This document shows positions 2,071-48,970 of a stretch of DNA of 64,000 nt, piece after piece (position 1 is the stretch's first letter; every line of letters starts with the position of its first letter). Position numbers and translations under genes: made by a program. This DNA is from Alphaproteobacteria bacterium. GTDB lineage: Bacteria > Pseudomonadota > Alphaproteobacteria > Sphingomonadales > Kordiimonadaceae. A model generated the notes under the pieces. That model ran no database searches, had not been told where the DNA came from, and saw nothing but the letters and a program-made list of their open reading frames with translations. The DNA lies in assembly GCA_006226495.1 (NCBI GenBank), contig SBGU01000056.1:124001-188000 (forward strand), in the 5' to 3' direction.

Positions 2071-4221
2071 TTAGAAGTTGGTCTGGTACGACAGGGTGAT
2101 GGCCCGGCCGCGGCCCGCGAAATAGCGGTCGTTCAAGGTGGTGCCCGCCTGCGAATAATAGGTGATATATTGTTTGTCGAACAGGTTCTGCACCCCAAGC
2201 TGGAAGCTGCCTTCCTCGATCTTGTAGCCGATCACCAGATCCACGACATCATAGCCCTGGAATTCCGCGGCCAGCGCATCGGCAGCGTTGGTGAAATCGC
2301 GGTCGAACAGATGCGCAAGCTGCAGGCGCGCCGACAGGTCGCCAGCCGAGAAAGCGGCATACAGGTTCAGCCGGTTCGGGCCGATATTCACGGCATCCAG
2401 GTCGGCATCCAGTTCGCCGTCGCCGTCCGTGTCCACCCGGCCCTTCTGGACCGACAGGTTGGCACCGACATCAAGGCCTTCGAACAGCATGGCCTCAAGC
2501 GTGGCTTCAAAACCGCGGATGCGGGTTTTTTCGCGCTGCACCCTGAGGATGCCGTCCGTGTCGGCCACATACCGTGCGCCTTCGCTGGATGAGGACTGGA
2601 AGATGCTGGCCTGGCCATGGAAGCGGCCCAGGGTGAAGCTGGTGCCCAGTTCGATATTGTCGGCCTTGATGGGCGACAGGTCAAACAGGTCATCCACCGA
2701 AACGCCGGGCTGGTTGATGCCGCGCAGCACCCGGCCGACATCGGCCATGGTGAAACCTTCGGAATAGGAACTGTAGACGGTCCAGCCATCCTGAATTTCC
2801 GCCACGATGCCGGCGTTCACGATCAGGTCGCTGTAGGACGGGCTGCCGCCTGTGACCGTCAGCACCTGATAGTCGCTGGACGCGCGGTTGCCGGCCAGGG
2901 TCTGGTAATCGTCCACCTTCAGGGTGGCGTTTTCATAGCGCACACCACCCGACAGGGTGATCATGCCACCCAGCGGCAGTTCAGCCTGCACAAACGGCGC
3001 GATGTTTTCATATTTGGTTTCCGGCACCCAGTTGCGGTCCGTGAAGATCAGGCGCTGGAAGGTTTTGTCCTTCAGGTAATCAACCCCGGTGAACAGGTTC
3101 ACGGCTGTGCCGGCAAAACCATGTTTGTCCCAGCCCAGGCGCGCGCCATATTTTTCGCTGTTGTTTTCCGACTGGTCGAACAGGGTGCCCACGGGTGCGA
3201 TGGCCGGGTCCTGGAAGGTGCCGAAGGTGCCGCCGCCGAAGCTGGAGCGGAAATCCTGCGAATAAAGCTGGAACGACAGGGTGCCGCCCGCAACCGCCCG
3301 GTTGGTATAATCGAACGAGATGGTGGTCACGTCGTTGGTGCCGGGTTCACCCTCGGGCGCACCTTCCTGTGCCATGGCCGGCGTGCCGGTGGTGCGGTTG
3401 CCGGCCAGGGTGCTGTAATCGCCGTCACCCGCCAGTTTGAAATCATTGACCATCAGTTGGATGCGCTGATCTTCGGTAGGTTCGAAGCCCAGTTTCACAA
3501 AAAAGTCGCGCTGTTCGCTGTCGGCCAGGTCGCCCTGGGTGGCGTCCACGCCGATGGCGTCGCCGTTGCCATCATAGAACAGGCCGCGCTTGTGATAGCT
3601 GACCGATGCCAGATAATCGAAACGGCCGATTTTCTGGCCGGCATAGACGGCGGCGCGATATTCGAAGCTGTCGCTGTCCAAATTGTCGGCGGTGGTGATG
3701 CCGACGCGGGAACCGATTTTCAGATCGCCGCTGTCATCGGCCTTTTTGGTCACGAAATTGATGATGCCGCCGGTGGCCCCCAGGCCCTGGATTGCGTTGG
3801 CGCCGTGGATCACCTCGATGCGGTCAACCACCGCCAGGTCGATGGTATAACCGTCGCGCGAGCCATCGCGCAGCGGGTTCGACTGCGGCACACCGTCGAT
3901 CAGGTACAAGGGGCTGCGGCCCCGGAAACTTTCGCCAAAACCGCTCAGTTTCTGGCGGCTGGGCGAAAAGCCGGGCACCAGATTGCCCAGAAGGCCGGAA
4001 ATGTCGGTGGCGATGGAAATCTGCTCGTCGATATCCTCGGGGCTGACAACCGAAACCATGTTCGGGATCGCGCTCACCGGCTTTTGAGTGCGGGTTGCGG
4101 ATACGATCAGTTCCTCGACCTCGCCGTCCGCGGGCGCGGCTTCGGCAAAGGCGGGGGCGGCAAGCGGCATCAGGCTTGCGCCAGCCAGGAACGACAGAAG
4201 AAGGCGTTTGTTCAGCACCAT
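2071..4221 (-). CDS. TonB-dependent outer-membrane receptor
   Basis: The 716-aa receptor starts at the ATG at 4221, preceded by GGAGGA; an upstream in-frame start at 4260 would add 13 basic residues and spoil the signal peptide. The N-terminus (MVLNKRLLLSFLAGASLM...AFA) is a signal peptide. EELIVSATRTQKP is the TonB box and start of the plug, which includes LIDGVPQSNPLRDGSRDGYTIDL and RIEVIHGANAIQGLGATGGIINF. The remainder is a 22-strand-type barrel ending in a terminal Phe (NQTNF), the usual outer-membrane assembly signal. The PepSY partner downstream favours a metal-chelate substrate, but the ligand is unknown. Confidence 0.93.
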   Translation of the reverse strand: MVLNKRLLLSFLAGASLMPLAAPAFAEAAPADGEVEELIVSATRTQKPVSAIPNMVSVVSPEDIDEQISIATDISGLLGNLVPGFSPSRQKLSGFGESFRGRSPLYLIDGVPQSNPLRDGSRDGYTIDLAVVDRIEVIHGANAIQGLGATGGIINFVTKKADDSGDLKIGSRVGITTADNLDSDSFEYRAAVYAGQKIGRFDYLASVSYHKRGLFYDGNGDAIGVDATQGDLADSEQRDFFVKLGFEPTEDQRIQLMVNDFKLAGDGDYSTLAGNRTTGTPAMAQEGAPEGEPGTNDVTTISFDYTNRAVAGGTLSFQLYSQDFRSSFGGGTFGTFQDPAIAPVGTLFDQSENNSEKYGARLGWDKHGFAGTAVNLFTGVDYLKDKTFQRLIFTDRNWVPETKYENIAPFVQAELPLGGMITLSGGVRYENATLKVDDYQTLAGNRASSDYQVLTVTGGSPSYSDLIVNAGIVAEIQDGWTVYSSYSEGFTMADVGRVLRGINQPGVSVDDLFDLSPIKADNIELGTSFTLGRFHGQASIFQSSSSEGARYVADTDGILRVQREKTRIRGFEATLEAMLFEGLDVGANLSVQKGRVDTDGDGELDADLDAVNIGPNRLNLYAAFSAGDLSARLQLAHLFDRDFTNAADALAAEFQGYDVVDLVIGYKIEEGSFQLGVQNLFDKQYITYYSQAGTTLNDRYFAGRGRAITLSYQTNF

Positions 4222-21458: not shown

Positions 21459-24155
21459 TCAGCCACCAAACCGGGCGCTGAGGCGCACATAGAAGAAGGC
21501 GCCCTTGGCGTTATAGGTGTTGATGTCGAAGTTGACGTTGGTGTTGACCAGCGACACCGGCGGCTGCTTGTCGAAGATGTTTTCAGCGCCCAAGGTCAGC
21601 GCAACATCGCTGTCCTGGAAACGGTAGGTGGCCGAAACATCATGGTACCACACAGCCGGGATATCGCCGGTCAGCGGATCGTCCGGCGCTTCGTCGGTCG
21701 AGCCGATCATGCGGGCGGCATAGGTGGCCGACCATTGACCGCTGTCCCAGCGGACCGAACCCCGGCTGCGCCATTTGGGAATGCTTTCCCGAAGCACGTC
21801 CGATGTGCCTTCCCGGTGCTGTACCGTGATCGAACCATCGTCGTTCACCAGTTCGTCCACATAGTCGGTGAGGTAGCTGGCATCCGCGAGGAAGGTGAAA
21901 TCACCATAGGATGTGCCGGTCACCTGATAGCGGGCGGTGAAATCCCAGCCTTCAACCGTGGTGGCGTTCAGGTTCACCGGACCGTCGAGGAGGTTCAGGA
22001 TTTCACCGTTCGACGCCCGGCTGATCAGCTCGCACTTCTCGCCGGTGTTGGCGCACAGGTCGAGAATACGCTGCGAGCCAAGGCTGGTGATCGTGTCCGA
22101 CACCTTGATGCGGTACCAGTCGACCGACAGCGAGAAACCGCTGAGTGCCGCGGGGGTGAATACGGCACCAAGCGAATAGTTGCGGGAGGTTTCAGGCTGA
22201 AGGTCGGGGTTGCCGCTGACGGTCGCCAGAACCTGGTTGCCGTTCTGTTCATACGTGGCGGGCACGCCGGCGCAACCGGGCAAACCTGCACCACCACCCG
22301 AGCAGGGGTCGTTGGCGACAAGGTTGGTTGCCCGCTCAGCCGGCGTGAATTCGAGGATCGAAGGCGCCCGGAAGCCCTCGGCATAGGTGGCACGCACCAG
22401 AAGGTCCTCGACCGGGCGCCAGCCCAGGCCCAGCTTCAGGTTGGTGGTGTCGCCAAAGGTGCTGTAGTGCGAATAACGGACCGCCGCATCCATGTTCAGG
22501 TCATGGATCATGGGCAGGTCTTTGAGAAGCGGCACATTGACCTCGGTATAAAACTCATACAGGTCATAATGCCCGCTCGAGGCATCGCGCGGCGCCGAGG
22601 TTGTGGTGCGGTAGCTGTTGAACTCAGGGTCCGCGTTCACATAGGAATCCGGGTTGTCGAACGCGCTTTCGCGGCGATATTCGAAGCCGGCCGCGAAGCC
22701 GATGGTGCCGGCAGGCGCCTCGAACAGGTCGCCGCTGATGTTTGCGGTGAAATCATGCTGGCGCGTGCCATGTTCGTCGTGGGCATCGTAGCGCAGGTAG
22801 TCGACCATTTCGTCCGTCAGCACACCCAGGTAATCGATGGGCACACAATTGTTGGCCACACAGCGGTCGTTGGGCCCGAGGCCCAGCGCCAGATGGTCCT
22901 GGTCAACCTGGTTGAGCGAGTCGAACGAGGAATCGTTCCGGCCATGGGAATAGAAGACATCCCACGACCAGCCGTTGGAAAACTCGCCGTCCAGCCCGGC
23001 GGCAAAACGCCAGGTTTCCACCTTCTGCAGGTTCACGCGCTGGCCCAGTTCGTCAAGCTGGCGGTCGAATTGCAGGCTGGAGGAAAAATCCTCGCCAAAC
23101 GGGTTATAGGGATGGTCGGCCAGCAAGACATAGCCTTCCGAACCGCGCACGCGCGGCGTAACCGGGGAAAACAACTGGTCGGACCGGCGGTTGTTATACA
23201 TGACCTCCGCCGTGAAATGCACCGCGTCCGACAACTGGTATTCGGCCTGCCCGAACAGGGCATAGCGGCGCAGCGGGCCGGTGACATAGGTATGGTCATA
23301 GATGTTGGTGCGGTCGTCGGGGTCGACAAAAGCACGGAAATCGTCAGGCGACGAACCATCGGTGCCGGCGATGCGGGTGATGCGGCCCCCGAGCGGCGAT
23401 CCGGAATAGCGGCCATAGGGCGACGTGGTCGACAGGCCATTGAGCGGCACCGCCGTCAGTTCCCGGTCCTCGGTATAGATTTCCTTCTGGTCGGTAAACA
23501 TGGCGGACACCATGACCGAGCCCTTGTCGAAGGTTTTGCCCCAGGTGGCGTCGAAGCTCATGGTTTCGCCGTCACCGCGGCTCGTGATGCCGCCATAACC
23601 GTTGACTTCGATACCGTCCATCTTGCGGGTATGGATATTCACCACACCGGCGATGGCATCGGCGCCATAAATGGCGGTGGCGCCGTCCTTCAGCACTTCG
23701 ACCCGGCCGATGATCGACTGCGGGATGGTGTTGAGGTCGACAAAGTCGCGGAAGCCGCGTGTGCCGGAACCCGCCACCCAGCGGTGGCCGTTCACCAGAA
23801 TGAGCGCACGGTTGGCGCCCAGGTTGCGCAGGTTCAGGCTGGATGTGCCGTGGCTGACACCGCCCGAACCGTTGGAGTTGAGGCTGAAGCCCACCCCCGG
23901 CAGTTCCTGCAGCATTTCGCCGGTGGACACCAGGCCCGTGGCGATCAGGTCGTCTTCGGACAGGGTGAAGATGGGGCTGTTGGCCACTTCGTCCTTGCGC
24001 TTGATGCGGGTACCGACGATGGCAACCTCTTCGATGGCGACATCTTCTGTCGCGGCTTCCTGTGCCAGGGCCGGCAGGCTGTAGCCGGTCGTCCCGAGGA
24101 ACGAACCCAGCATCAAGACCCCCAGTCCCGAATATCTGTGGTGTTTGTTGGACAT
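21459..24155 (-). CDS. TonB-dependent receptor (large, peptide/oligomer-type)
   Basis: The 898-aa receptor starts at the ATG at 24155, after GGAGG; an in-frame start at 24209 gives a poorly credible arginine-rich leader. MSNKHHRYSGLGVLMLGSFLGTTGYSLPALA is the signal peptide, IEEVAIVGTRIKR the TonB box, and MLQELPGVGFSLNSNG through RVEVLKDGATAIYGADAIAGVVNI the plug. The barrel ends with RFGG. The plug style (long receptor, VGTRIKR, GxxNLRNLGANRALILVNG) is that of receptors common in alphaproteobacteria and Xanthomonas-like groups that take up peptides, sugars or aromatics rather than siderophores. It precedes the CocE gene by 120 bp on the same strand. Confidence 0.93.
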   Translation of the reverse strand: MSNKHHRYSGLGVLMLGSFLGTTGYSLPALAQEAATEDVAIEEVAIVGTRIKRKDEVANSPIFTLSEDDLIATGLVSTGEMLQELPGVGFSLNSNGSGGVSHGTSSLNLRNLGANRALILVNGHRWVAGSGTRGFRDFVDLNTIPQSIIGRVEVLKDGATAIYGADAIAGVVNIHTRKMDGIEVNGYGGITSRGDGETMSFDATWGKTFDKGSVMVSAMFTDQKEIYTEDRELTAVPLNGLSTTSPYGRYSGSPLGGRITRIAGTDGSSPDDFRAFVDPDDRTNIYDHTYVTGPLRRYALFGQAEYQLSDAVHFTAEVMYNNRRSDQLFSPVTPRVRGSEGYVLLADHPYNPFGEDFSSSLQFDRQLDELGQRVNLQKVETWRFAAGLDGEFSNGWSWDVFYSHGRNDSSFDSLNQVDQDHLALGLGPNDRCVANNCVPIDYLGVLTDEMVDYLRYDAHDEHGTRQHDFTANISGDLFEAPAGTIGFAAGFEYRRESAFDNPDSYVNADPEFNSYRTTTSAPRDASSGHYDLYEFYTEVNVPLLKDLPMIHDLNMDAAVRYSHYSTFGDTTNLKLGLGWRPVEDLLVRATYAEGFRAPSILEFTPAERATNLVANDPCSGGGAGLPGCAGVPATYEQNGNQVLATVSGNPDLQPETSRNYSLGAVFTPAALSGFSLSVDWYRIKVSDTITSLGSQRILDLCANTGEKCELISRASNGEILNLLDGPVNLNATTVEGWDFTARYQVTGTSYGDFTFLADASYLTDYVDELVNDDGSITVQHREGTSDVLRESIPKWRSRGSVRWDSGQWSATYAARMIGSTDEAPDDPLTGDIPAVWYHDVSATYRFQDSDVALTLGAENIFDKQPPVSLVNTNVNFDINTYNAKGAFFYVRLSARFGG

Positions 24156-24309
24156 TTTGTTTTTTCCTCCCGGAGCATGGGCCCGGCGTCTGCGCCGTGG
24201 CTTCCTCAAGTCCTGGAAAGCCTAGGGGAGGGTTTCACCGGCATTCAATATCATGACATTTTTTCCCGGGCCCATTCCGGAAATGCATGGGATGCGCGGC
24301 ACAAAAAAA

Positions 24310-27054: not shown

Positions 27055-29184
27055 CTAAAGCTTCCAGCGCAGTTCGACAAAGGCCGTGCGCGGTTCACCC
27101 GGGAAGTGGCCATCGCGTTCGATGAAGCCCGAAGCCGCATATTCCTTGTCGAACAGGTTATCAATGCGCAACAGCACGCTGATATTGTCGTTAATCGGCT
27201 GGATCAGCGACGTATCGAATATGGTGTAGGCCTTCACGGTCTGACCGTCGATGCTCAGCCGCTTGGACACATACTCGGCACCAACGGCCACAGTGGTGCC
27301 GATGCCCGGCAACTGATAGCGGGTCCAGAGACCGGCCTGATGTTTGGGCGCATTCGCAAACCGGTCGCCAACCGCGTTGGTGAGCGACTGGCCCTCGACC
27401 GTGCCGGTGATGCGGGTGTCGTTATAGCCATAGTTGGCGGTCAGCACCCAGTCGCGCGTCAGGTCGGCGGAAATCTCGACCTCGAAGCCCTTGGCGGTGA
27501 CTTCACCGATGGGGGTCAGGTCGTCGACCCCGTCGGTCGCATTGCCGTTCGGGTCCGTCTGCAACATGTTCTGGCGCTTGATCTGATAGACCGCAAAATT
27601 GGCCTGGACGGCACCGTCCAGAAGCGCGGTCTTGATGCCTGCCTCCCACTGTTCCCCGGTCATCGGGTTGAAGGGCCCGCCGGCCAGCGGGTCCTGCGAC
27701 GAAACGCTTTGCGGCTCGAAACTTTGCGACCAGCTTGCATAGAGCGACACATCGTCCCTGAGCTTGAAGATCGGGCCGGCGCGGAAGGTCCAGTCGCCGT
27801 TCGAATAGTTTTCGCCCGAAACCAGGTCTTCGTCGTCGAAACGGTCGTACCGCACACCGCCGATCAGGATCAGGCGGTCGGTAACGGCAAACTGGTCCTG
27901 CAGATAAAAGCCATAGCGGGTGGAACGGGTGTTGGTGGAGCGGAGCGCATAACTGTCCAGGTCATACATGGACGCGCCCGAGGTGCCGTAAACCGGGTCC
28001 TCGAGGTCAAGCGGGGTCACATCGCCGCGCGGGACCGTGCGGCCCCAGAAAGTTGCATCCTCGCGGTACCAGTCGGCACCCACCAGGACCTTGTTCTTGT
28101 GGCCGGCAATCTCGCGGTCGAACGACGCGGTGCCCGAGAAGGTCAGGCCATCGGTTTCGCGTTCCTGGTCCCGAAGTTCCCTGAGCGAACTGTCGATCAG
28201 CCCGTCATTGTCGGTGTCCAGGAACCCGCGGGGTTCGTGATACTGCTGGCGTTCAAGCGCGGTGAAATAGCGCACGGCAACTTCGGTCGAGATGCCTTCA
28301 CCCGGTTCAGCCTGCAGGCGCGCCTGGTAGGTGGTGGCCTTGAGGTTCAGGAAATCGGTCGGTTCGTTGGCGTTCCAACTGATGTCGGCCAGGAAATTGC
28401 CTTCGTCATCCACCGGCACGCCGCGCAGGCGCGCGCCCTGCATCTTCTGGTCATAATGCGCCACCTGGGTGATCAGGCGGGCGGCCTCGCCCAGCTTGAA
28501 AGTCAGGCCACCATCCAGGATGGTCGACTTGTCATGTGTGTTGTTGCGGAAGGGCTTCATGTCCTCATACAGCGCGCCGGCGCGGCCCAGGATGGTGCCC
28601 GATTTGTTCAAGGGTCCGGAAATCTCGCCCGAGGCACCATAACGGTCGTAATTGCCCAGGGTCAGGTCAGCGCTGGCGGCCAGTTCTTCTGTCGGGGTTT
28701 TGGTGACATAGTTGATCAGGCCACCCGGCTCACCCGGACCATACAGCATGCCGGCGGGGCCTTTCAGCACTTCAACCCGTTCGATATTGAACAGCTTGGG
28801 CACCGAAAAGGCGATGAAGGGGTTGCCGCGCAGGCTGTCATAGAACACCTGGTCCTGCCGGAAACCCCGGAAGGTAACGCCCGAATAGCTGAAGGTCGTG
28901 ATGCCGGCGATGTTGCGGTAAAGGTCGGTCATGTCGCGCGCACCCTGGTCTTCGATCAGGGCTGCATTCAGAATGGTCACCGACTGCGGGATATCGAGCG
29001 GATCGTCCGCGCCGCGCACGACGCTAGTGGCACCGACCCGGTAAAGGGTCTGGGCCCGACCGGTAACCACGATTTCAGTGACCGTATCATCGTCGTCGCC
29101 GGCTTCGGCATGAGCGGGCAGTGCGGCCACCATCGCGGCGGCGCTGGCGGTGAAAAGACAAAAGGCTTTAAACGGAAATTTCAT
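27055..29184 (-). CDS. TonB-dependent siderophore receptor
   Basis: The 709-aa receptor has a signal peptide (MKFPFKAFCLFTASAAAMVAALPAHA), the TonB box TEIVVTGRAQTLYR, and a plug with DIPQSVTILNAALIEDQGARDMTDLYRNIAGIT. KGPAGMLYGPGEPGGLINYVTK is diagnostic of the FhuA/FpvA-type siderophore receptor subfamily. The barrel ends in FVELRWKL. It starts at 29184 after GGGAG. It would import a ferric hydroxamate or similar chelate. Iron-regulator-like palindromes lie just upstream, and the PepSY gene is downstream with a 6-bp gap. Confidence 0.93.
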   Translation of the reverse strand: MKFPFKAFCLFTASAAAMVAALPAHAEAGDDDDTVTEIVVTGRAQTLYRVGATSVVRGADDPLDIPQSVTILNAALIEDQGARDMTDLYRNIAGITTFSYSGVTFRGFRQDQVFYDSLRGNPFIAFSVPKLFNIERVEVLKGPAGMLYGPGEPGGLINYVTKTPTEELAASADLTLGNYDRYGASGEISGPLNKSGTILGRAGALYEDMKPFRNNTHDKSTILDGGLTFKLGEAARLITQVAHYDQKMQGARLRGVPVDDEGNFLADISWNANEPTDFLNLKATTYQARLQAEPGEGISTEVAVRYFTALERQQYHEPRGFLDTDNDGLIDSSLRELRDQERETDGLTFSGTASFDREIAGHKNKVLVGADWYREDATFWGRTVPRGDVTPLDLEDPVYGTSGASMYDLDSYALRSTNTRSTRYGFYLQDQFAVTDRLILIGGVRYDRFDDEDLVSGENYSNGDWTFRAGPIFKLRDDVSLYASWSQSFEPQSVSSQDPLAGGPFNPMTGEQWEAGIKTALLDGAVQANFAVYQIKRQNMLQTDPNGNATDGVDDLTPIGEVTAKGFEVEISADLTRDWVLTANYGYNDTRITGTVEGQSLTNAVGDRFANAPKHQAGLWTRYQLPGIGTTVAVGAEYVSKRLSIDGQTVKAYTIFDTSLIQPINDNISVLLRIDNLFDKEYAASGFIERDGHFPGEPRTAFVELRWKL

Positions 29185-36273: not shown

Positions 36274-37200
36274 ATGAACCACAAGCCGCACAGCGCAGAC
36301 GAGGCCCCGCCGCCATTCCTGCACCACCCGCCCGCAGGTGCGCCGACCCCGTTCATCTTTGCCGTGCCGCACAGTGGCCGCTATTACCCGCCCTCGTTCC
36401 TCAGAAGCGCGAAGCTGGAGCTGAATACCCTTCGGCTGAGCGAAGATGCCTTTGTCGACAAGCTGTTCGAGCCGGTGCCCGCACTGGGCGCAACCCTTTT
36501 GGTGGCCACCCACGCGCGCTCGTACCTGGACCTGAACAGGGGCGCGACCGAACTGGATGCCGGCATGTTCAACCCGCCGCTTGATGCGCGGGAGCTGTAT
36601 GTCAGCCACCGGGTGAAGGCGGGCCTGGGCATGATCCCGAAACAGGTGGCAGAGGGCCTGAATATATATGACGGCCTGTTGCCGGCCCGCGAGGCCCTGG
36701 CCCGGGTCGAGGGTGTGCACCGCCCCTATCACGACAAGCTGCGGACGCTGCTGGACGCGCGCCGGCGCAGTTTCGGACGCGCCGTGCTGGTGGACTGCCA
36801 TTCCATGCCGTCCGACAGCGGCTTGCCGCAAAAGCGCCGGGGCCGCGCAGCATTGCCCGGCCCCGATATCGTGCTGGGCGACTGCTGGGGCACCGCCTGC
36901 GGGCGCGAACTTTCCGACATTGCCGAAGACATGCTGGTGCGTGCGGGTTTCAGCGTGCGGCGCAACGTGCCTTATGCGGGTGGTTATATCACCCAGCATT
37001 ATGGCAGCCCGGGTGCGGGCATCCATGCCCTGCAGATCGAGATCAACCGTGCCCTATATATGGACGAGGAAAAACTGCTGCCGCTGGACGGATTCGCAGA
37101 CGTCAGCGCGCGCCTGATGCAGTTTGCGACCAATTTTGTCCAGCATGCGCTCAGGTATTTCCCGACTGTGGGGGACGAACTGCCCCGGGCCGCAGAATAG
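36274..37200 (+). CDS. N-formylglutamate amidohydrolase family protein
   Basis: The 308-aa protein has the FGase domain: PFIFAVPHSGRYYPPSFL near residue 27, LLVATHARSYLDLNRGATELDAGMF, LVDCHSMPSDS, GYITQHYGSPGAGIHALQIEINRALYMDEE. The conserved H, D and E residues in these blocks form a zinc-dependent active site in the family. HutG-type members cleave N-formylglutamate to glutamate and formate in histidine degradation, but no other hut gene is nearby, so the substrate may be another N-acyl amino acid. A 7-bp hairpin lies right before the ATG. Confidence 0.88.
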   Translation: MNHKPHSADEAPPPFLHHPPAGAPTPFIFAVPHSGRYYPPSFLRSAKLELNTLRLSEDAFVDKLFEPVPALGATLLVATHARSYLDLNRGATELDAGMFNPPLDARELYVSHRVKAGLGMIPKQVAEGLNIYDGLLPAREALARVEGVHRPYHDKLRTLLDARRRSFGRAVLVDCHSMPSDSGLPQKRRGRAALPGPDIVLGDCWGTACGRELSDIAEDMLVRAGFSVRRNVPYAGGYITQHYGSPGAGIHALQIEINRALYMDEEKLLPLDGFADVSARLMQFATNFVQHALRYFPTVGDELPRAAE

Positions 37201-37490: not shown

Positions 37491-40109
37491 ATGGCTAACA
37501 TAAAACACTCTCTCTGGGGCGCCTCATGCATTGCCATCGCAGCTACCACCACGACCGGTGTAGCTGCCCAGGAGAGTCAAGATACATCTGCAGCCGCTTC
37601 CATTGAGGAAGTTGTCGTAACCGGTTCGCGCCGTGCAGCGCGTTCAGCAGCAGACACGCCGGCACCTGTCGACGTGATTTCGGGGGACGATTTCGCCAAC
37701 CAGGGTACGGGTGACATGTCGGACATGCTCCGCACTGTCGTACCGTCCTATAACGTCAACGCGATGCCCATCAACGACGCGTCGACCCTTATCCGCCCGG
37801 CCAACCTGCGTGGCCTGGCGCCTGACCAGACCCTCGTTCTGCTGAACGGCAAGCGGCGCCACCGCGCTGCGGTCATCACCTTCCTGGGTGGCGGCCTGTC
37901 GGACGGCGCACAGGGCCCGGACATCGGCGTTATCCCGTCGATCGCGCTGAAGCGCGTTGAAGTGCTGCGCGATGGTGCATCCGCACAATATGGTTCCGAC
38001 GCCATTGCCGGCGTGATGAACTTCGTGCTGCGCGACGACAGCGAAGGCGGCAGCTTCCAGGCCAAATGGGGTAAAACCTACGACGGCGGCGGCACGCAGA
38101 AACAGCTTGCGGCCAACGTGGGCCTGCCTGTCACCGACGACGGTTTCATGAACATCAGCGCCGAATGGCGTGAAGCCAGCCCGACCAGCCGTTCTGTCCA
38201 GCGCGACGACGCTGCGGGCCTGATTGCCGGCGGCAACACCGACGTCAAGGACCCGGCCCAGGTCTGGGGTACGCCGGAAGTGCGGAACGACTGGAAAGCC
38301 TTCTTCAACTTCGGCATCCAGGCGACCGAAAAAGCCGAACTTTATGCCTTCGGCAACTATGCCGAGCGTGAAGTGGAAGGTGGCTTCTTCTACCGCAACC
38401 CCGATACCCGCGCCGGTGTGAACACCGCCGATGGCGGCGTGACCCGCCTTGTCGGCGACATGGACCCCTATGACGGCGTTACCTGCCCGGGCGGCATCAA
38501 CTTCGCCACCGGCGAGATCGACAACCCGCTGGTCATCGGCTCCGACACCGAAGCCGACATGATGGCGCAAATCGCTGCCGACCCGAACTGCTGGGTCTTC
38601 AACGAAATGTTCCCCGGTGGCTTCACGCCGCAATTTGGCGGCAACCTCAATGACGCGGCGATCGCGGTTGGTGTCCGCGGCGAGCTGGACAGCGGCCTGA
38701 TGTATGATGTCAGCGCCCATGTCGGCCGCAACCAGGCTGATTTCTTCATCCTGAACACGGTGAACCCGAGCCTGGGTTCTGCCACGCCGAACGATTTCGA
38801 CCTGGGTTCCTACATCCAGCTTGAAAAGAACTTCAACGCCGAAGTGTCCTACCCTGTTGAAATCGGCCTCTATTCGCCGCTCAACATCGCGGGTGGTTTC
38901 GAATGGCGTGAAGAACAGTTCGAAGCCCGCACCGGCCAGCCGGAATCCTTCGAAGCCGGCGTTCTTGCCGCACCGATCGATATCGACGGCCTCGGACCGA
39001 TGGACCCGATCTCGCAGGGCTTCGGCATCGGCGCCAACGGTTTCAACGGCTTCAGCCCGCAGGTTGCCGGTTCGTGGGACCGCACCAACATTGCCTTCTA
39101 TGTCGACATGGAAGCCGACGTGACCGAAAAACTGGTCCTGGGTGCAGCCCTGCGCTGGGAAGACTTCTCTGACTTTGGCTCGACCACCAATTTCAAGGTG
39201 TCCGGCCTCTATAAATTCAGCGATGCCTTCCGCCTGCGTTCGAGCTATTCGACCGGCTTCCGGGCACCGACCCCGGGCCAACAGCAGGTTGTGAACATCT
39301 CGACCGTGTTCGAGAATGTGGACGGCGTGCTTCAGCTTGCCCAGCGCGGCACGATCCCACCGACCAACCCGATCGCCCAGGCCAAAGGTGCGGAAGCACT
39401 GGGCCCAGAAAAATCGGACAACTTCTCGGTTGGTTTTGTGGCCGATGTTGGTGCAGTCAACGTCACCGTCGACTATTTCAACATCAAGCTGAAAGACCGG
39501 ATCACCCAGTCCGCTTCGCAAACCCTGACCGCACAGGAACGGTCTGACCTTCTGGCTTCCGGCATCACCTTTGCCGCAGACCTGCAGGCCTTCCGCTTCT
39601 ATGTGAACGACTTCGACACCAAAACCGAAGGTATCGACGTTGTGGCCACCATCCCGCTCGACCTGTTCGAGGATGGCACCACCCAGGTTGCGTTCGCCGG
39701 TAACTATACCAAAACCAAGGTAACGGATTTCGATCCGAACACCCTGGATAGCTGCCGTGTGCAACTGCTTGAAGAAAACCTGCCCAACTACCGCTTCAAC
39801 ACCACCTTCTCGCATGCGACCGACAAATGGCGCATGCTGGCCCGCGGTAACTATTATGGCAGCTATTTCGAAGCACACCTTGATGCCTGTGACCTGCCGA
39901 TCAACGCAGGTTCGGAAATCACCTTCGATGCGGAAATCGGTTACAACGTCATGGAGAACCTCGAAGTCTCCATCGGGGCCGAAAACCTGTTCAACAACTA
40001 CCCGGACGTGAACCCGTGGGGCGGTGTTGCAGGTGCCAAGTATCCGGTGACCTCGCCGATGGGCTTCAACGGCGGCTTCTATTACGTCCGCGCGCGCTAC
40101 AGCTTCTAA
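37491..40109 (+). CDS. TonB-dependent receptor (large, SusC-independent type)
   Basis: The 872-aa receptor starts at 37491 with ribosome site GGAGGG. MANIKHSLWGASCIAIAATTTTGVAA is the signal peptide, IEEVVVTGSRRAARS the TonB box, and MLRTVVPSYNVNAMPINDASTLIRPANLRGLAPDQTLVLLNGKRRH with RVEVLRDGASAQYGSDAIAGVMNFVLRDD the plug. The barrel ends in FYYVRARYSF. The NxR-rich TLVLLNGKRRHR and FLGGGLSDGAQGPDIGVIP segments are typical of alphaproteobacterial receptors of unknown or carbohydrate/aromatic ligands. It is monocistronic with a terminator. The ligand is unknown. Confidence 0.93.
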   Translation: MANIKHSLWGASCIAIAATTTTGVAAQESQDTSAAASIEEVVVTGSRRAARSAADTPAPVDVISGDDFANQGTGDMSDMLRTVVPSYNVNAMPINDASTLIRPANLRGLAPDQTLVLLNGKRRHRAAVITFLGGGLSDGAQGPDIGVIPSIALKRVEVLRDGASAQYGSDAIAGVMNFVLRDDSEGGSFQAKWGKTYDGGGTQKQLAANVGLPVTDDGFMNISAEWREASPTSRSVQRDDAAGLIAGGNTDVKDPAQVWGTPEVRNDWKAFFNFGIQATEKAELYAFGNYAEREVEGGFFYRNPDTRAGVNTADGGVTRLVGDMDPYDGVTCPGGINFATGEIDNPLVIGSDTEADMMAQIAADPNCWVFNEMFPGGFTPQFGGNLNDAAIAVGVRGELDSGLMYDVSAHVGRNQADFFILNTVNPSLGSATPNDFDLGSYIQLEKNFNAEVSYPVEIGLYSPLNIAGGFEWREEQFEARTGQPESFEAGVLAAPIDIDGLGPMDPISQGFGIGANGFNGFSPQVAGSWDRTNIAFYVDMEADVTEKLVLGAALRWEDFSDFGSTTNFKVSGLYKFSDAFRLRSSYSTGFRAPTPGQQQVVNISTVFENVDGVLQLAQRGTIPPTNPIAQAKGAEALGPEKSDNFSVGFVADVGAVNVTVDYFNIKLKDRITQSASQTLTAQERSDLLASGITFAADLQAFRFYVNDFDTKTEGIDVVATIPLDLFEDGTTQVAFAGNYTKTKVTDFDPNTLDSCRVQLLEENLPNYRFNTTFSHATDKWRMLARGNYYGSYFEAHLDACDLPINAGSEITFDAEIGYNVMENLEVSIGAENLFNNYPDVNPWGGVAGAKYPVTSPMGFNGGFYYVRARYSF

Positions 40110-40132: not shown

Positions 40133-40158
40133 AAGGGCGCTCCGCACGGGGCGCCCTT
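40133..40158 (+). terminator. Intrinsic terminator after the 872-aa receptor
   Basis: AAGGGCGC (40133-40140) pairs with GCGCCCTT (40151-40158) with a loop that can form extra CC/GG pairs, followed by TTG. It is 24 bp after the receptor stop codon. Confidence 0.78.
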
Positions 40159-40302
40159 TGTCATTCCGCCAGCCGCCGGCGTCCCGGTGCAAAAGTTGTT
40201 TCTTGCTCGAAACAAGCCGCAGGCTGCCAGCATTGTAACGGCAGCGCATTTCGGTACGGTCAACAAATGATCTGGCGGGCGGCCCGATACGATAGGCCCG
40301 GC

Positions 40303-40385
40303 ACAAAAAAAGAGGCCACGCAACAGCGTGGCCCAGGCTCAGGGAGGAAACGCCCACGGAGGGCATTAGCGGGGGCTACCCGCCA
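40303..40385 (-). ncRNA. Candidate small RNA with three hairpins
   Basis: On the minus strand a sigma-70-like promoter is followed by about 83 nt that fold into three successive stems: GCGGG/CCCGC (40383-40379 with 40373-40369), GCCC/GGGC (40364-40361 with 40355-40352) and the terminator stem GGCCACGC/GCGTGGCC (40333-40326 with 40321-40314), ending in T7. Between the second and third stems lies GTTTCCTCCCTGAGCC (40351-40336), single-stranded and complementary to a Shine-Dalgarno core, as in anti-SD small RNAs of alphaproteobacteria. No minus-strand gene lies upstream that this terminator could serve. There is no ribosome site plus start codon for a credible peptide. The match to a known family was not tested. 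Confidence 0.6.
40314..40333 (-). terminator. Intrinsic terminator of the candidate small RNA
   Basis: The 8-bp stem GGCCACGC/GCGTGGCC around TGTT (minus strand) is followed by CTC and T7 (40311-40305). With T residues on the minus strand and nothing coding upstream, it must belong to an unannotated transcript. Confidence 0.8.
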
Positions 40386-40391
40386 ATTACT

Positions 40392-40420
40392 AAGATAAAA
40401 GCTTCGGACCCAAATTCCAA
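40392..40420 (-). promoter_or_regulatory. Promoter of the candidate small RNA
   Basis: On the minus strand, TTGGAA (40420-40415) and TATCTT (40397-40392) have exactly 17 bp between them. A start about seven bases later (near 40385) yields a transcript that begins just before the first hairpin. Confidence 0.5.
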
Positions 40421-40450
40421 GTGCAGCATAGGTCACGAAACGTTGAAAAA

Positions 40451-40470
40451 GACTTAAAAGCACTTAAGTC
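40451..40470. repeat. Palindrome upstream of the small-RNA promoter
   Basis: GACTTAA (40451-40457) is mirrored by TTAAGTC (40464-40470) with a 6-nt loop, a perfect 7-6-7 palindrome. It lies 31 bp upstream of the small-RNA -35 box and could control that RNA or the LpxH-like gene on the other side. Confidence 0.4.
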
Positions 40471-40635: not shown

Positions 40636-40655
40636 GGCGGGCGAAAATGCCCGCC
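40636..40655 (+). promoter_or_regulatory. GC-rich hairpin ending exactly at the LpxH-like start codon
   Basis: GGCGGGC (40636-40642) pairs with GCCCGCC (40649-40655) across GAAAAT; the next base begins the ATG at 40656. No Shine-Dalgarno lies closer, so the hairpin may shape start-site choice, and an alternative ATG at 40647 is inside the loop/stem. Confidence 0.4.
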
Positions 40656-41660
40656 ATGAAAACAGATTTTGCACAATCCGCGATTTCCTCCCTCCCCGGC
40701 TTTGACGGTGACGCTGTTGCGCACCTGTCCGGCCGGGGCCCGTTGTTCAAAGAGGCCGGCCCGGAGCCGTTTCGAGCGCCGGACATGGGCCGACCCGACA
40801 ACCCGGGTGCCCATGAATTTTCGGTCAAACATAAAAAAGCGCGTCATTATCGCGCTGTTTTTATATCCGACACACACCTGGGCACGCGCGCGGCACGGGT
40901 CGACCTGCTGCTGGATTTCCTGAAGTCCGTCAGTTGCGACCAGTTGTTCCTAGTGGGCGACATTATCGACGGCTGGGCGATCAAGCGGTCCTGGTACTGG
41001 GACACGGATCATAACGACGTCATCCGGCGTGTGCTGAAGATGGCCAAGCACGGCACCAGGGTCATCTATATCCCCGGCAACCATGACGAAGGACTGCGCG
41101 GCTTCGAAGGCCACAATATGGCCGGGGTCGAACTGGTGCCGGACATGGTCTATACGGCCGCAAACGGCAAACGATACTGGATACTGCACGGCGACCAGTT
41201 TGATGGGGTCGTGAAATATGCCAAGTGGCTCGCCCATGTCGGCGACCGCGCCTATATGCTCCTGATCAAGCTGAACACCATGGTGAACTGGGTGCGGCGC
41301 AAGCTGGGCTACAGCTACTGGTCCCTGTCGGCTTATCTGAAGCACAAGGTAAAGAACGCGGTTGAATATATCGGTCGCTTCGAGGAAGCCGTGGCCGCCG
41401 AAGCCGCCCGCCGCGGCATCGACGGTGTGATCTGCGGCCACATCCACCATGCGGAGCGCCGCTTCTTCGGCGGCATCGAATATATGAACGACGGTGACTG
41501 GGTCGAAAGCTGCACAGCCCTTGTGGAGCATGACGACGGCCGGTTCGAGATCATCTACTGGGCCGACGAGGTTGCCGCCCGCACCGCCAGCAAGGGCAAA
41601 CCGGGCAAACGCGGGCGCAAGGCCGCGGGCGACACACCCGTGCCCGTGGCGGCGGAATAG
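40656..41660 (+). CDS. LpxH-like UDP-2,3-diacylglucosamine diphosphatase family phosphoesterase
   Basis: The 334-aa protein is a calcineurin-fold metallophosphoesterase: the DxH motif in FISDTHLG, GDIIDGWAIKRSWYWD, GNHDEGL and the His-rich HGDQFDG and GHIHHAERR all fit the two-metal site. It resembles the COG2908 family (LpxH/LpxI-like, lipid A pathway or glycolipid phosphatase). The first 60 residues are a non-conserved extension, so the true start is uncertain: 40656 is chosen for its position after the hairpin, with 40647 and 40782 as alternatives. The stop is 15 bp before the glycosyltransferase, and the pair likely makes or trims a cell-envelope glycolipid (inference). Confidence 0.8.
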   Translation: MKTDFAQSAISSLPGFDGDAVAHLSGRGPLFKEAGPEPFRAPDMGRPDNPGAHEFSVKHKKARHYRAVFISDTHLGTRAARVDLLLDFLKSVSCDQLFLVGDIIDGWAIKRSWYWDTDHNDVIRRVLKMAKHGTRVIYIPGNHDEGLRGFEGHNMAGVELVPDMVYTAANGKRYWILHGDQFDGVVKYAKWLAHVGDRAYMLLIKLNTMVNWVRRKLGYSYWSLSAYLKHKVKNAVEYIGRFEEAVAAEAARRGIDGVICGHIHHAERRFFGGIEYMNDGDWVESCTALVEHDDGRFEIIYWADEVAARTASKGKPGKRGRKAAGDTPVPVAAE

Positions 41661-46376: not shown

Positions 46377-48803
46377 CTATTCATGATGCAATACTGAAGC
46401 GGGTCTGATCGCCAGAATGCGGCGCACATGGCCAAGCAGAATAATGGCCGCCACCAGTAGCACAACAAGTAGCGCAATCCCATAGAAGGCCAGCGGCAGG
46501 TCCGCGCGGTCGCGCCCCGTTGTCGCCAACCATTCCTGCATAAGCCACCACGCGGGGACAAGTGCGGCCAGGCCACCAACACCAACCGGTGTCAGCATGC
46601 GCACAAGGAACAGGCGTGCGAGATGCCCCCGCCCCGCGCCCAGCACACGCCTGAGCGCCAGTTCGCGGCGCCGCGTGGCCGCCCAGTGGCTGGCCATGCC
46701 ATACAGGCCCGCAAGACACAGCAGGGCGCAAAGCCCGGCCATGGTGGCAACCGCGCGACCAACGTTGATATGTTTGCGCTGGGCTTCCTCGAACCGGTCA
46801 GCGAGGGTCTCAAGTTTCGCTTCATCGTTCGGGAATGCTGTGTGCCATGCGGCAAGTATGTCGGCCTGAACCCGGTCCTGGGCACCGTCCGTCAGGACCA
46901 TCATGTCGATAACATTGACCGCGGACATCGGGTCGAATGAAACAATCATCGGCGCCGCCATCCGGAAGCGCGAATCCTCGACCTGGCCGAGGACCGCCGC
47001 AATGCGGTATTCTCGCTGTTCGACCGTGCCATCCGTGTTCGTCTGTTCCTGCAGCAGAACGGCGCCGATGGCTTCTTCCGGGCTTTCGAACCCGAAAGCC
47101 CGCATAGCTTTTGGGGTCAGGCCAATCATATGCTCGCGCCCGCGCCAATCTTCCTGCATCTGGGCTAACGGTTTGATTTCCAGAACATCCAGATAATCGG
47201 GCCCGACAATGCGGACTGCGACCTGAACCTTGTCGGGGCTGTTGTCCCGCCTGAGATTCATGATCCAGACCCCGCGTATGCTGAAAGGTGTGTGACCCGC
47301 CGCTGTGGCCGCACTGACCCCGGGGATGGCCCGGACCGTCTCCAGAAAGCTGCCAAGGAAAAGTGCCTTGCCTTCGGCCGATGGCGCCTCAATAAACATC
47401 ACGCCCGCTGTTCTGAAGCCACGATCCTTGGTCAACAGATAATGAACCTGCCAGGCGATCTGGCCCGCCGCGACCAGCGCGCCGACCACGGCAAATGCCT
47501 GCAACCCCAGGAACAGACTGCGCCCTATGCCGCGCCGACCAGTCACAGAACCGGACATCGACCGCAGCACATTTTGCGGACGTATTTTCGCGGCGCGGAC
47601 AGCCAGCATCACAGCCCCAAGGGCACCGACCAGCAAGGCCAAGGCCGCGAATATCATCAGAAGGATTTCACGGCCTTCGACCCAAATCGGGATCGGGTTC
47701 TTGACCAGTTCGGCGACCGTCGGTTCAAGGTCGGTTGCAAGCAACAGACCGAAAGCAAAGGCAGCCAGGCTGAGTAAAATGCCGTCTGTCATCGCGGCGC
47801 AAATCAGATGACGGCGCGAAGCCCCCACAACCCGCCGAATGGCCATTTCCTTCAAACGACCGCCGTTGATGGCCGACAACAGATTGGCTGCGTTGAACCA
47901 GGCCACCAGCAGCAAGACACCGGCGATGGTAGCCAGAATATTCAACATGCCGCCATCCGTCGGCGGTTTCATGGCGGAGAAGGTACGGGTGTGATATTGC
48001 AGCCCCTTCACCGGTTCAATACCCGACGAGAAGGACAGGTCCCTGTCCGTCGGTATGGCTGCGCTCATGTCCCGTTCGAACCGCGCGACAAAGTCGGAGC
48101 CGTAGCTGCCGGGCGCCAGGACCAGATATGTATGGGCCATGCCCCAATAGTCATACCCCCGCCCCAACAGTTCACGCATCAAACCGTCGTTCCATGGTAC
48201 GATGGCTTCGAATGCCAGATGCGAATTTGGCGGGATATCCTCAACCACGGCGCCGACCCTGTAGGGCAGGCTTTTCTCGCCAACCTGCAAAGTCAGGGTG
48301 CGGCCAAGCGCAGGGCTCGCAAAAAGCCTTTCCGCCTGCCGGCGCGTCAGGATCAGGCTGTTGTTGTCAGCCAGGGCACTCGCGAGGCTGCCTTCGATTT
48401 CGTCCAGCGGAAACAGGTCTGCAAAAGACGCATCAGCAAAGGCAATATCCAGCGGCATGCTGGCGCCACCTATGGTCACCGTCGCGGCTTCCTTGACCAA
48501 TCGCAGGCTTGCGGTCACTTCCGGGAACAGGCTGCGCGCCCGTTCCGCAACCATGACATGGCTTCGGCTGGTGCGCCCGAACACCCCTTGGCGGCCAAGC
48601 GCGCGTGGCTGTTCATTCACCCGATACAGATTTTCCACGCCTGGCAGCCAGGCATCCGACCGGACGCCATCATGCACATACAGGGTGGCCAGAAGCGCAA
48701 CCGCATAGGCGGCAGACATGCCGAAGAAGGCGCATGCAACGCCAAAAAAATGTCGCCGCCACAGCCGGAGCGACGCGTAGAGATAGCTGAGATATTGCCC
48801 CAT
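46377..48803 (-). CDS. MacB/FtsX-like permease without ATPase (paralogue 1)
   Basis: The 808-aa protein has an N-terminal helix after LYASLRLWRRHFFGVACAFFGMSAAYAVALLATLYV and a MacB-type periplasmic core. A group of three helices with FtsX features follows (LLSAINGGRLKEMAIRRVVGASRRHLICAAMTDGILLSLAAFAFGLLLATDL), then a second periplasmic domain and a C-terminal FtsX domain ending HVRRILAIRPASVLHHE. So it is two tandem FtsX halves with no Walker motif. It resembles the ABC-exporter permeases that act as mechanotransmission or signalling proteins. It pairs in sequence with the gene at 49555; an oxidoreductase separates them. The start follows GGAGGGGGGAGGAAT. Confidence 0.85.
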   Translation of the reverse strand: MGQYLSYLYASLRLWRRHFFGVACAFFGMSAAYAVALLATLYVHDGVRSDAWLPGVENLYRVNEQPRALGRQGVFGRTSRSHVMVAERARSLFPEVTASLRLVKEAATVTIGGASMPLDIAFADASFADLFPLDEIEGSLASALADNNSLILTRRQAERLFASPALGRTLTLQVGEKSLPYRVGAVVEDIPPNSHLAFEAIVPWNDGLMRELLGRGYDYWGMAHTYLVLAPGSYGSDFVARFERDMSAAIPTDRDLSFSSGIEPVKGLQYHTRTFSAMKPPTDGGMLNILATIAGVLLLVAWFNAANLLSAINGGRLKEMAIRRVVGASRRHLICAAMTDGILLSLAAFAFGLLLATDLEPTVAELVKNPIPIWVEGREILLMIFAALALLVGALGAVMLAVRAAKIRPQNVLRSMSGSVTGRRGIGRSLFLGLQAFAVVGALVAAGQIAWQVHYLLTKDRGFRTAGVMFIEAPSAEGKALFLGSFLETVRAIPGVSAATAAGHTPFSIRGVWIMNLRRDNSPDKVQVAVRIVGPDYLDVLEIKPLAQMQEDWRGREHMIGLTPKAMRAFGFESPEEAIGAVLLQEQTNTDGTVEQREYRIAAVLGQVEDSRFRMAAPMIVSFDPMSAVNVIDMMVLTDGAQDRVQADILAAWHTAFPNDEAKLETLADRFEEAQRKHINVGRAVATMAGLCALLCLAGLYGMASHWAATRRRELALRRVLGAGRGHLARLFLVRMLTPVGVGGLAALVPAWWLMQEWLATTGRDRADLPLAFYGIALLVVLLVAAIILLGHVRRILAIRPASVLHHE

Positions 48804-48970
48804 ATTCCTCCCCCCTCCCGAGAACAGGAAAGGTTATGGTATATCAATACACATCTCAGGCAAGACTAAAATACACCCAGTGGTTACATTGCACACTTGA
48901 CCACTGTCAAAGACCGATGGGCCATGCTGCGCCATTCTGCAGGCTGGGACAGTTTCAGGGTGGTTCATTG

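Follow-up and report, generated by a model that had tools for sequence, protein, structure and literature searches.

The locus considered here raises the question of what is transcribed from the minus strand between two plus-strand genes of a Kordiimonadaceae genome, and of what the product would regulate. The locus lies in a window of 64,000 nucleotides, the whole stretch of DNA that was analyzed. An original prediction had read a promoter on this strand, then two hairpins, a single-stranded anti-Shine-Dalgarno stretch and, at the end, a terminator, and each of these parts was found as described. The same prediction regarded the locus as the clearest unexplained genetic element of the window. 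This is wrong, as the element is a catalogued member of the Rfam family RF00519, which has studied relatives (MmgR and SisA-D), and the RNA itself is ordinary. The minus-strand element is very probably a chromosomal αR8 small RNA (sRNA) with its own promoter, which, judged from sequence, would act as a SisA-like repressor of receptor genes.

The RF00519 covariance model (suhB, Makes More Granules Regulator) matches positions 40298-40371 of the minus strand with 58.9 bits (cut-off 41, E 1.4e-9 for the window), and the alignment takes in the entire model (positions 1-77 of 77), which establishes the family membership. This match and one tRNA are the two Rfam matches over the curated cut-offs in the window, and at E <= 0.001 it is the single RF00519 match in the host genome. 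Across 59 genomes, the host included, RF00519 was found at E <= 0.001 in 57 and over the cut-off in 52; some of the low-scoring rows are not true family members. All other Rfam families at the element stayed below their cut-offs. The identities SorY (29.2 bits, cut-off 111) and anti-hemB (25 bits, cut-off 49.5) were rejected, their bit scores being far under the curated values. According to PMC12559287 and PMC7143759, RF00519 is the αR8 family, whose experimentally studied members are MmgR and SisA-D. The family is defined by an internal single-stranded 10-mer, UUUCCUCCCU, which follows a weak hairpin, and its genes are usually linked to a gene for N-formylglutamate amidohydrolase (FGase) (PMC12559287).

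The predicted transcript of about 83 nt occupies positions 40303..40387 of the minus strand (ends approximate; from the RF00519 match and the fold). Read on this strand, the order is TTGGAA, 17 bases, TATCTT, two hairpins, TTTCCTCCCTGAGCC, a terminator stem of nine pairs and a run of seven T. The promoter (40392..40420) consists of the -35 element TTGGAA at 40420-40415, the 17-nt spacer and the -10 element TATCTT at 40397-40392. Hairpin 1 (40365..40387), seen in the fold and in the loci of relatives, lies mostly beyond the Rfam model, and hairpin 2 (40352..40364; GCCC-UCCGU-GGGC) agrees with the RF00519 consensus structure and the fold. The anti-Shine-Dalgarno seed at 40341..40350, UUUCCUCCCU, read as TTTCCTCCCT, is identical to the αR8 10-mer (PMC12559287). 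The intrinsic terminator (40305..40334) has its stem at 40334-40313, followed by C and by T7 at 40311-40305. The 83-nt sequence folds at -40 kcal/mol, compared with a mean of -27.8 for shuffled sequences (z -4.3; none of 200 shuffles equal), and the 10-mer is unpaired in the minimum-energy fold. The claim that no coding gene upstream on the minus strand needs a terminator holds, since both flanking genes are on the plus strand and no coding gene is seen running into the terminator.

Conservation was read from the locus of the window and those of 26 relatives, 27 in all. Eight RF00519 rows, none with the exact 10-mer, were left out when promoter, hairpins and alignment were counted: L082 and L096-L101 (from G004, G005, G006, G015 with two, G018 and G023) and a 39.5-bit match in G001. 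The seven weak matches of the first group were rejected as αR8 on the absence of the 10-mer. Three of them (L082, the first match of G015; L097 of G018; L099 of G005) stand after coding ends that resemble one another, with CTTCCCAAA ahead of a terminator. They are likely another 3'-end element because this coding end is common to them, perhaps a separate conserved RNA derived from 3' ends. In the 27 aligned loci the 10-mer is invariant (loci without it having been removed beforehand) and the terminator is kept. Hairpin 1 forms a stem of at least five pairs in 26 of the 27 loci despite its changing sequence, and in 24 of 27 no more than 10 of 200 shuffles fold equally well. It was folded sequence by sequence because MAFFT misaligns this variable part and RNAalifold draws no pairs there. 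On the alignment, RNAalifold supports the terminator, with both sides changed in two pairs and a small covariation term (-0.42); it draws neither hairpin 1 nor hairpin 2 and pairs part of the latter with the stretch behind the 10-mer.

A -10 element resembling TTATCTTA (at least 5 of 8 positions) is present in 26 of the 27 family loci. The three best columns of the -35 region in these 26 loci hold T in 26, G in 25 and A in 23, with a varying spacer; the -10 was chosen by best match and the -35 was not. Conservation in relatives beyond the terminator, the original prediction's own test, is thus seen in the 10-mer, hairpin 1, the promoter and the gene neighborhood.

Upstream of the promoter, a TTAA-N7-TCAA element (40443..40457, minus strand) recurs at a fixed position in relatives. 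It was found in 13 of the 27 loci, whereas shuffled sequences gave a mean of 0.13 and a maximum of 2; in 12 of the 13 it stands 58-59 bases from the -10. Among TTAA/TCAA spacings from 3 to 15, none besides N7 occurred more than once, and TTAA-N7-TTAA was present in none of the 27 loci. The spacing matches that of CtrA boxes, and the element is a possible response-regulator site. A motif TCA(A/C)...T(C/T)GT(G/T)A stands right behind it in 15 of the 27 loci.

The FGase gene of the window lies at 36274..37200 on the plus strand (PF05013, E 2e-70). Between it and the sRNA, and convergent with the latter, is a TonB-dependent receptor gene (37491..40109, plus strand; PF00593, PF07715), and beyond the sRNA follow a plus-strand phosphoesterase gene, its start taken at 40653, and a glycosyltransferase gene. 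The best RF00519 matches of 28 relatives (genus and family) include 26 with the 10-mer, and in 24 of these 26 loci FGase is within the fetched stretch. The remaining two are G028, cut by a contig end, and G010, with no FGase within about 6 kb. The FGase midpoint is at most about 700 bases from the sRNA in 16 of the 24 loci, and a receptor stands between FGase and sRNA, like in the window, in G004, G006 and G011. Among 27 named loci found with the FGase of the window, 16 carry TTCCTCCCT followed by a T-run within 5.5 kb of FGase; the other 11, some of them cut short, include five Ruegeria and two Amylibacter loci.

The neighboring receptor gene lacks the complement of the 10-mer. In its leader, the stretch ACGGAGGG could pair, by eye, with CCCUCCGU of hairpin 2; a duplex computation, made with the sRNA as a whole, is uninformative on this pairing. 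Behind the receptor stop, an inverted repeat (40133-40158) with a short T-run is not among the terminators of the scan. An exact complement of the 10-mer is located at 40684-40693 on the sRNA's own minus strand, about 330 bases upstream and antisense to the phosphoesterase start; such a complement beside the sRNA was seen in 2 of 30 loci only, L001 (host genome) and L013 (G011). The window holds four TonB-dependent receptor barrel matches: 2182-3441, 21576-23114, 27154-28404 (-) and 38808-39989 (+).

The host genome holds 10 copies of AGGGAGGAAA, the exact complement of the 10-mer, and two of the reversed string. The sRNA itself accounts for one copy, and the second sRNA candidate described below for another. 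Five stand shortly before start codons (FAD-dependent oxidoreductase, aldo/keto reductase, TonB-dependent receptor, FlbT and phytase), one precedes an apparent receptor start by about 150 bases, and two are inside or antisense to a gene. On reading these 10 complements, no sponge-type small RNA was recognized among them.

The pattern GGGAGGAA-N1..8-ATG gave 34 sites in the host genome and three when reversed, the reversed pattern being no matched Shine-Dalgarno control. All 34 seed sites open frames of at least 133 codons, stop included, and by Pfam 10 of the 34 genes encode TonB-dependent receptors. With 60 receptor genes in the genome, about 0.5 would be expected by chance (p 8e-12 to 1e-10, for an assumed 3500-4500 genes). 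Two predicted target sites lie in the window on the minus strand, namely GGGAGGAA...ATG of a TonB-dependent receptor gene (24153..24171; L126) and GGGAGGAATATG, which belongs to a gene whose product has an FtsX-like permease domain (48801..48812; L127).

Seed complementarity to receptor Shine-Dalgarno regions, a trait of the SisA type, is thus present in the host genome, and it is weaker in the two relatives G011 and G012. In G011, which has 32 seed sites, receptors stand behind four (Pfam was run on 25 of the frames, the remaining seven having at most 58 codons). This is an excess at p 0.001 (3400 genes and 50 receptors assumed), and at p 0.03 when compared with two other Shine-Dalgarno strings in the host genome (0 of 45 sites). 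In G012 the count is 1 of 14 (11 Pfam-tested, the remaining three of at most 14 codons; p 0.15 with 3600 genes assumed). The host genome and G011 have three predicted targets in common: a receptor, a protein like adenosine deaminase and a member of the sigma-70 family (same Pfam domains; N-termini alike by eye). An AMP-binding enzyme recurs in G011 and G012, as does a protein of the penicillin amidase family.

The closest known system is SisA of Caulobacter crescentus, with its siblings SisB-D, which resembles the host sRNA in the 10-mer after a weak hairpin, the terminator, the FGase neighbor and the receptor targets, the last predicted here. The SisA locus differs in that the host sRNA has a receptor gene between FGase and sRNA. 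In place of the four Sis siblings of Caulobacter, the host has a single RF00519 match at E <= 0.001, besides a seed-bearing candidate that is more distant. According to PMC12559287, SisA represses receptor mRNAs, and for one of them the pairing of the 10-mer with the leader was shown by compensatory mutations; carbon starvation induces the sponge RNA CrfA, which lifts this repression. MmgR of Sinorhizobium meliloti is like the host sRNA in its end-to-end RF00519 match, single copy, anti-Shine-Dalgarno motif and three stem-loops. NfeR1 (αr14), another alphaproteobacterial sRNA, carries an anti-Shine-Dalgarno motif, which it has in common with the host sRNA; no family besides RF00519 is over its cut-off at the element. 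For MmgR, promoter inputs by NtrC and AniA are reported, and NfeR1 is placed in αr14 (both PMC7143759). The original view of the element, an sRNA with an anti-Shine-Dalgarno stretch like those of other alphaproteobacteria, is supported by the RF00519 match and the family 10-mer.

A SisA-type mechanism is the best reading because the seed and the predicted target class are the same. Points against it are the lower receptor excess in G011 and G012, the missing seed complement in the neighboring receptor gene and the small covariation term. The αR8 sRNA would be made from its own promoter and end, after about 83 nt, at the intrinsic terminator. Its unpaired UUUCCUCCCU, together with Hfq, would pair with Shine-Dalgarno sequences of the GGGAGGAA type; pairing would block ribosome binding, and TonB-dependent receptors and other genes would be turned down. 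Most likely, then, the host αR8 turns down outer-membrane nutrient receptors.

Three other explanations were weighed against this reading. The one that would leave no gene at all, with the stretch being a terminator region in common with the convergent receptor gene or a set of chance hairpins, is extremely improbable. The terminator alone is unremarkable, as terminator-like hairpins are common locally (four such sites per 1.7 kb, compared with 2.4 in shuffles). A strict scan of the 1.7-kb stretch for E. coli-type promoters returned none, and the receptor's downstream inverted repeat, with its short T-run, is not listed as a terminator of its own. However, the T-run stands on the minus-strand side only, the 10-mer is conserved, promoter columns are conserved at a fixed spacing, and the element is above chance because of the RF00519 homology and the -35/-10 pair kept in 26 of the 27 aligned loci. 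Membership of the family with a main role in carbon storage, in which the sRNA would limit polyhydroxybutyrate (PHB) granules via phasins as has been proposed for MmgR, is improbable as well, to a lesser degree. Loss of MmgR is linked to more PHB and to the phasins PhaP1 and PhaP2 in Sinorhizobium (PMC7143759 and PMC12559287). The host genome, given as 96.8% complete, has no match to Phasin_2 (PF09361, one phasin family) at E <= 0.001, which makes the MmgR phasin link less likely here, and it is at receptor genes that the seed sites are over-represented.

More weight, while still unlikely, is given to the view that the receptor excess reflects a preference of receptor genes for strong Shine-Dalgarno sequences and that the targets of the sRNA are unrelated. 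GGGAGGAA is itself a strong Shine-Dalgarno sequence, and in G012 the receptor excess does not reach significance (1 of 14). Against this, two other strong Shine-Dalgarno strings stand before no receptor gene in a coordinate test, with 0 of 45 control sites (AGGAGGT 0 of 30, its 31 rows holding one site twice; AAGGAGGA 0 of 15). The same coordinate test yields 10 of 34 for the seed sites, equal to Pfam, and the difference from the controls is significant (Fisher p 9e-5); restricted to those AAGGAGGA sites that open a frame of at least 100 codons (none among 11; 14 sites were read), the p value is 0.09. A stricter first coordinate filter, superseded by Pfam and the looser test, gave 2 of 34 for the seed sites and none in either control. 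SisA also acts on receptor mRNAs in Caulobacter, as reported in PMC12559287. Repression of receptor genes by the host αR8 is accordingly kept as the preferred reading.

A second seed-bearing sRNA candidate (L065 / L180) is located on another contig of the host genome (G000:C53:1625-1714, plus strand), where AGGATTTCCTCCCTGAAC is followed by a terminator. It carries TTTCCTCCCTGAAC and a strong terminator and scores 18.8 bits with RF00519, below the cut-off. Among the 29 genomes searched (the host, 17 more from its genus and 11 from its order) it is present in the host and G011 only, with 84% identity over 62 bases, and its terminator stem has changes on both sides between the two. The candidate may be a young αR8 sibling or a convergent sRNA.

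No study of αR8 in Kordiimonadaceae was found in the literature searched, and the promoter, the neighborhood and the predicted receptor regulon are added here; this regulon and the TTAA-N7-TCAA element extend a known family modestly. In a broader scheme, put forward as a doubtful one, a CtrA-type response regulator bound at TTAA-N7-TCAA would control the αR8 of Kordiimonadaceae, this RNA would govern a wide set of TonB-dependent receptors, and the candidate on contig C53 would be a young sibling under independent control. If true, CtrA-type control of αR8 would link outer-membrane uptake to the cell cycle. If the regulon holds true, control of TonB-dependent receptors by αR8 would not be peculiar to Caulobacter.
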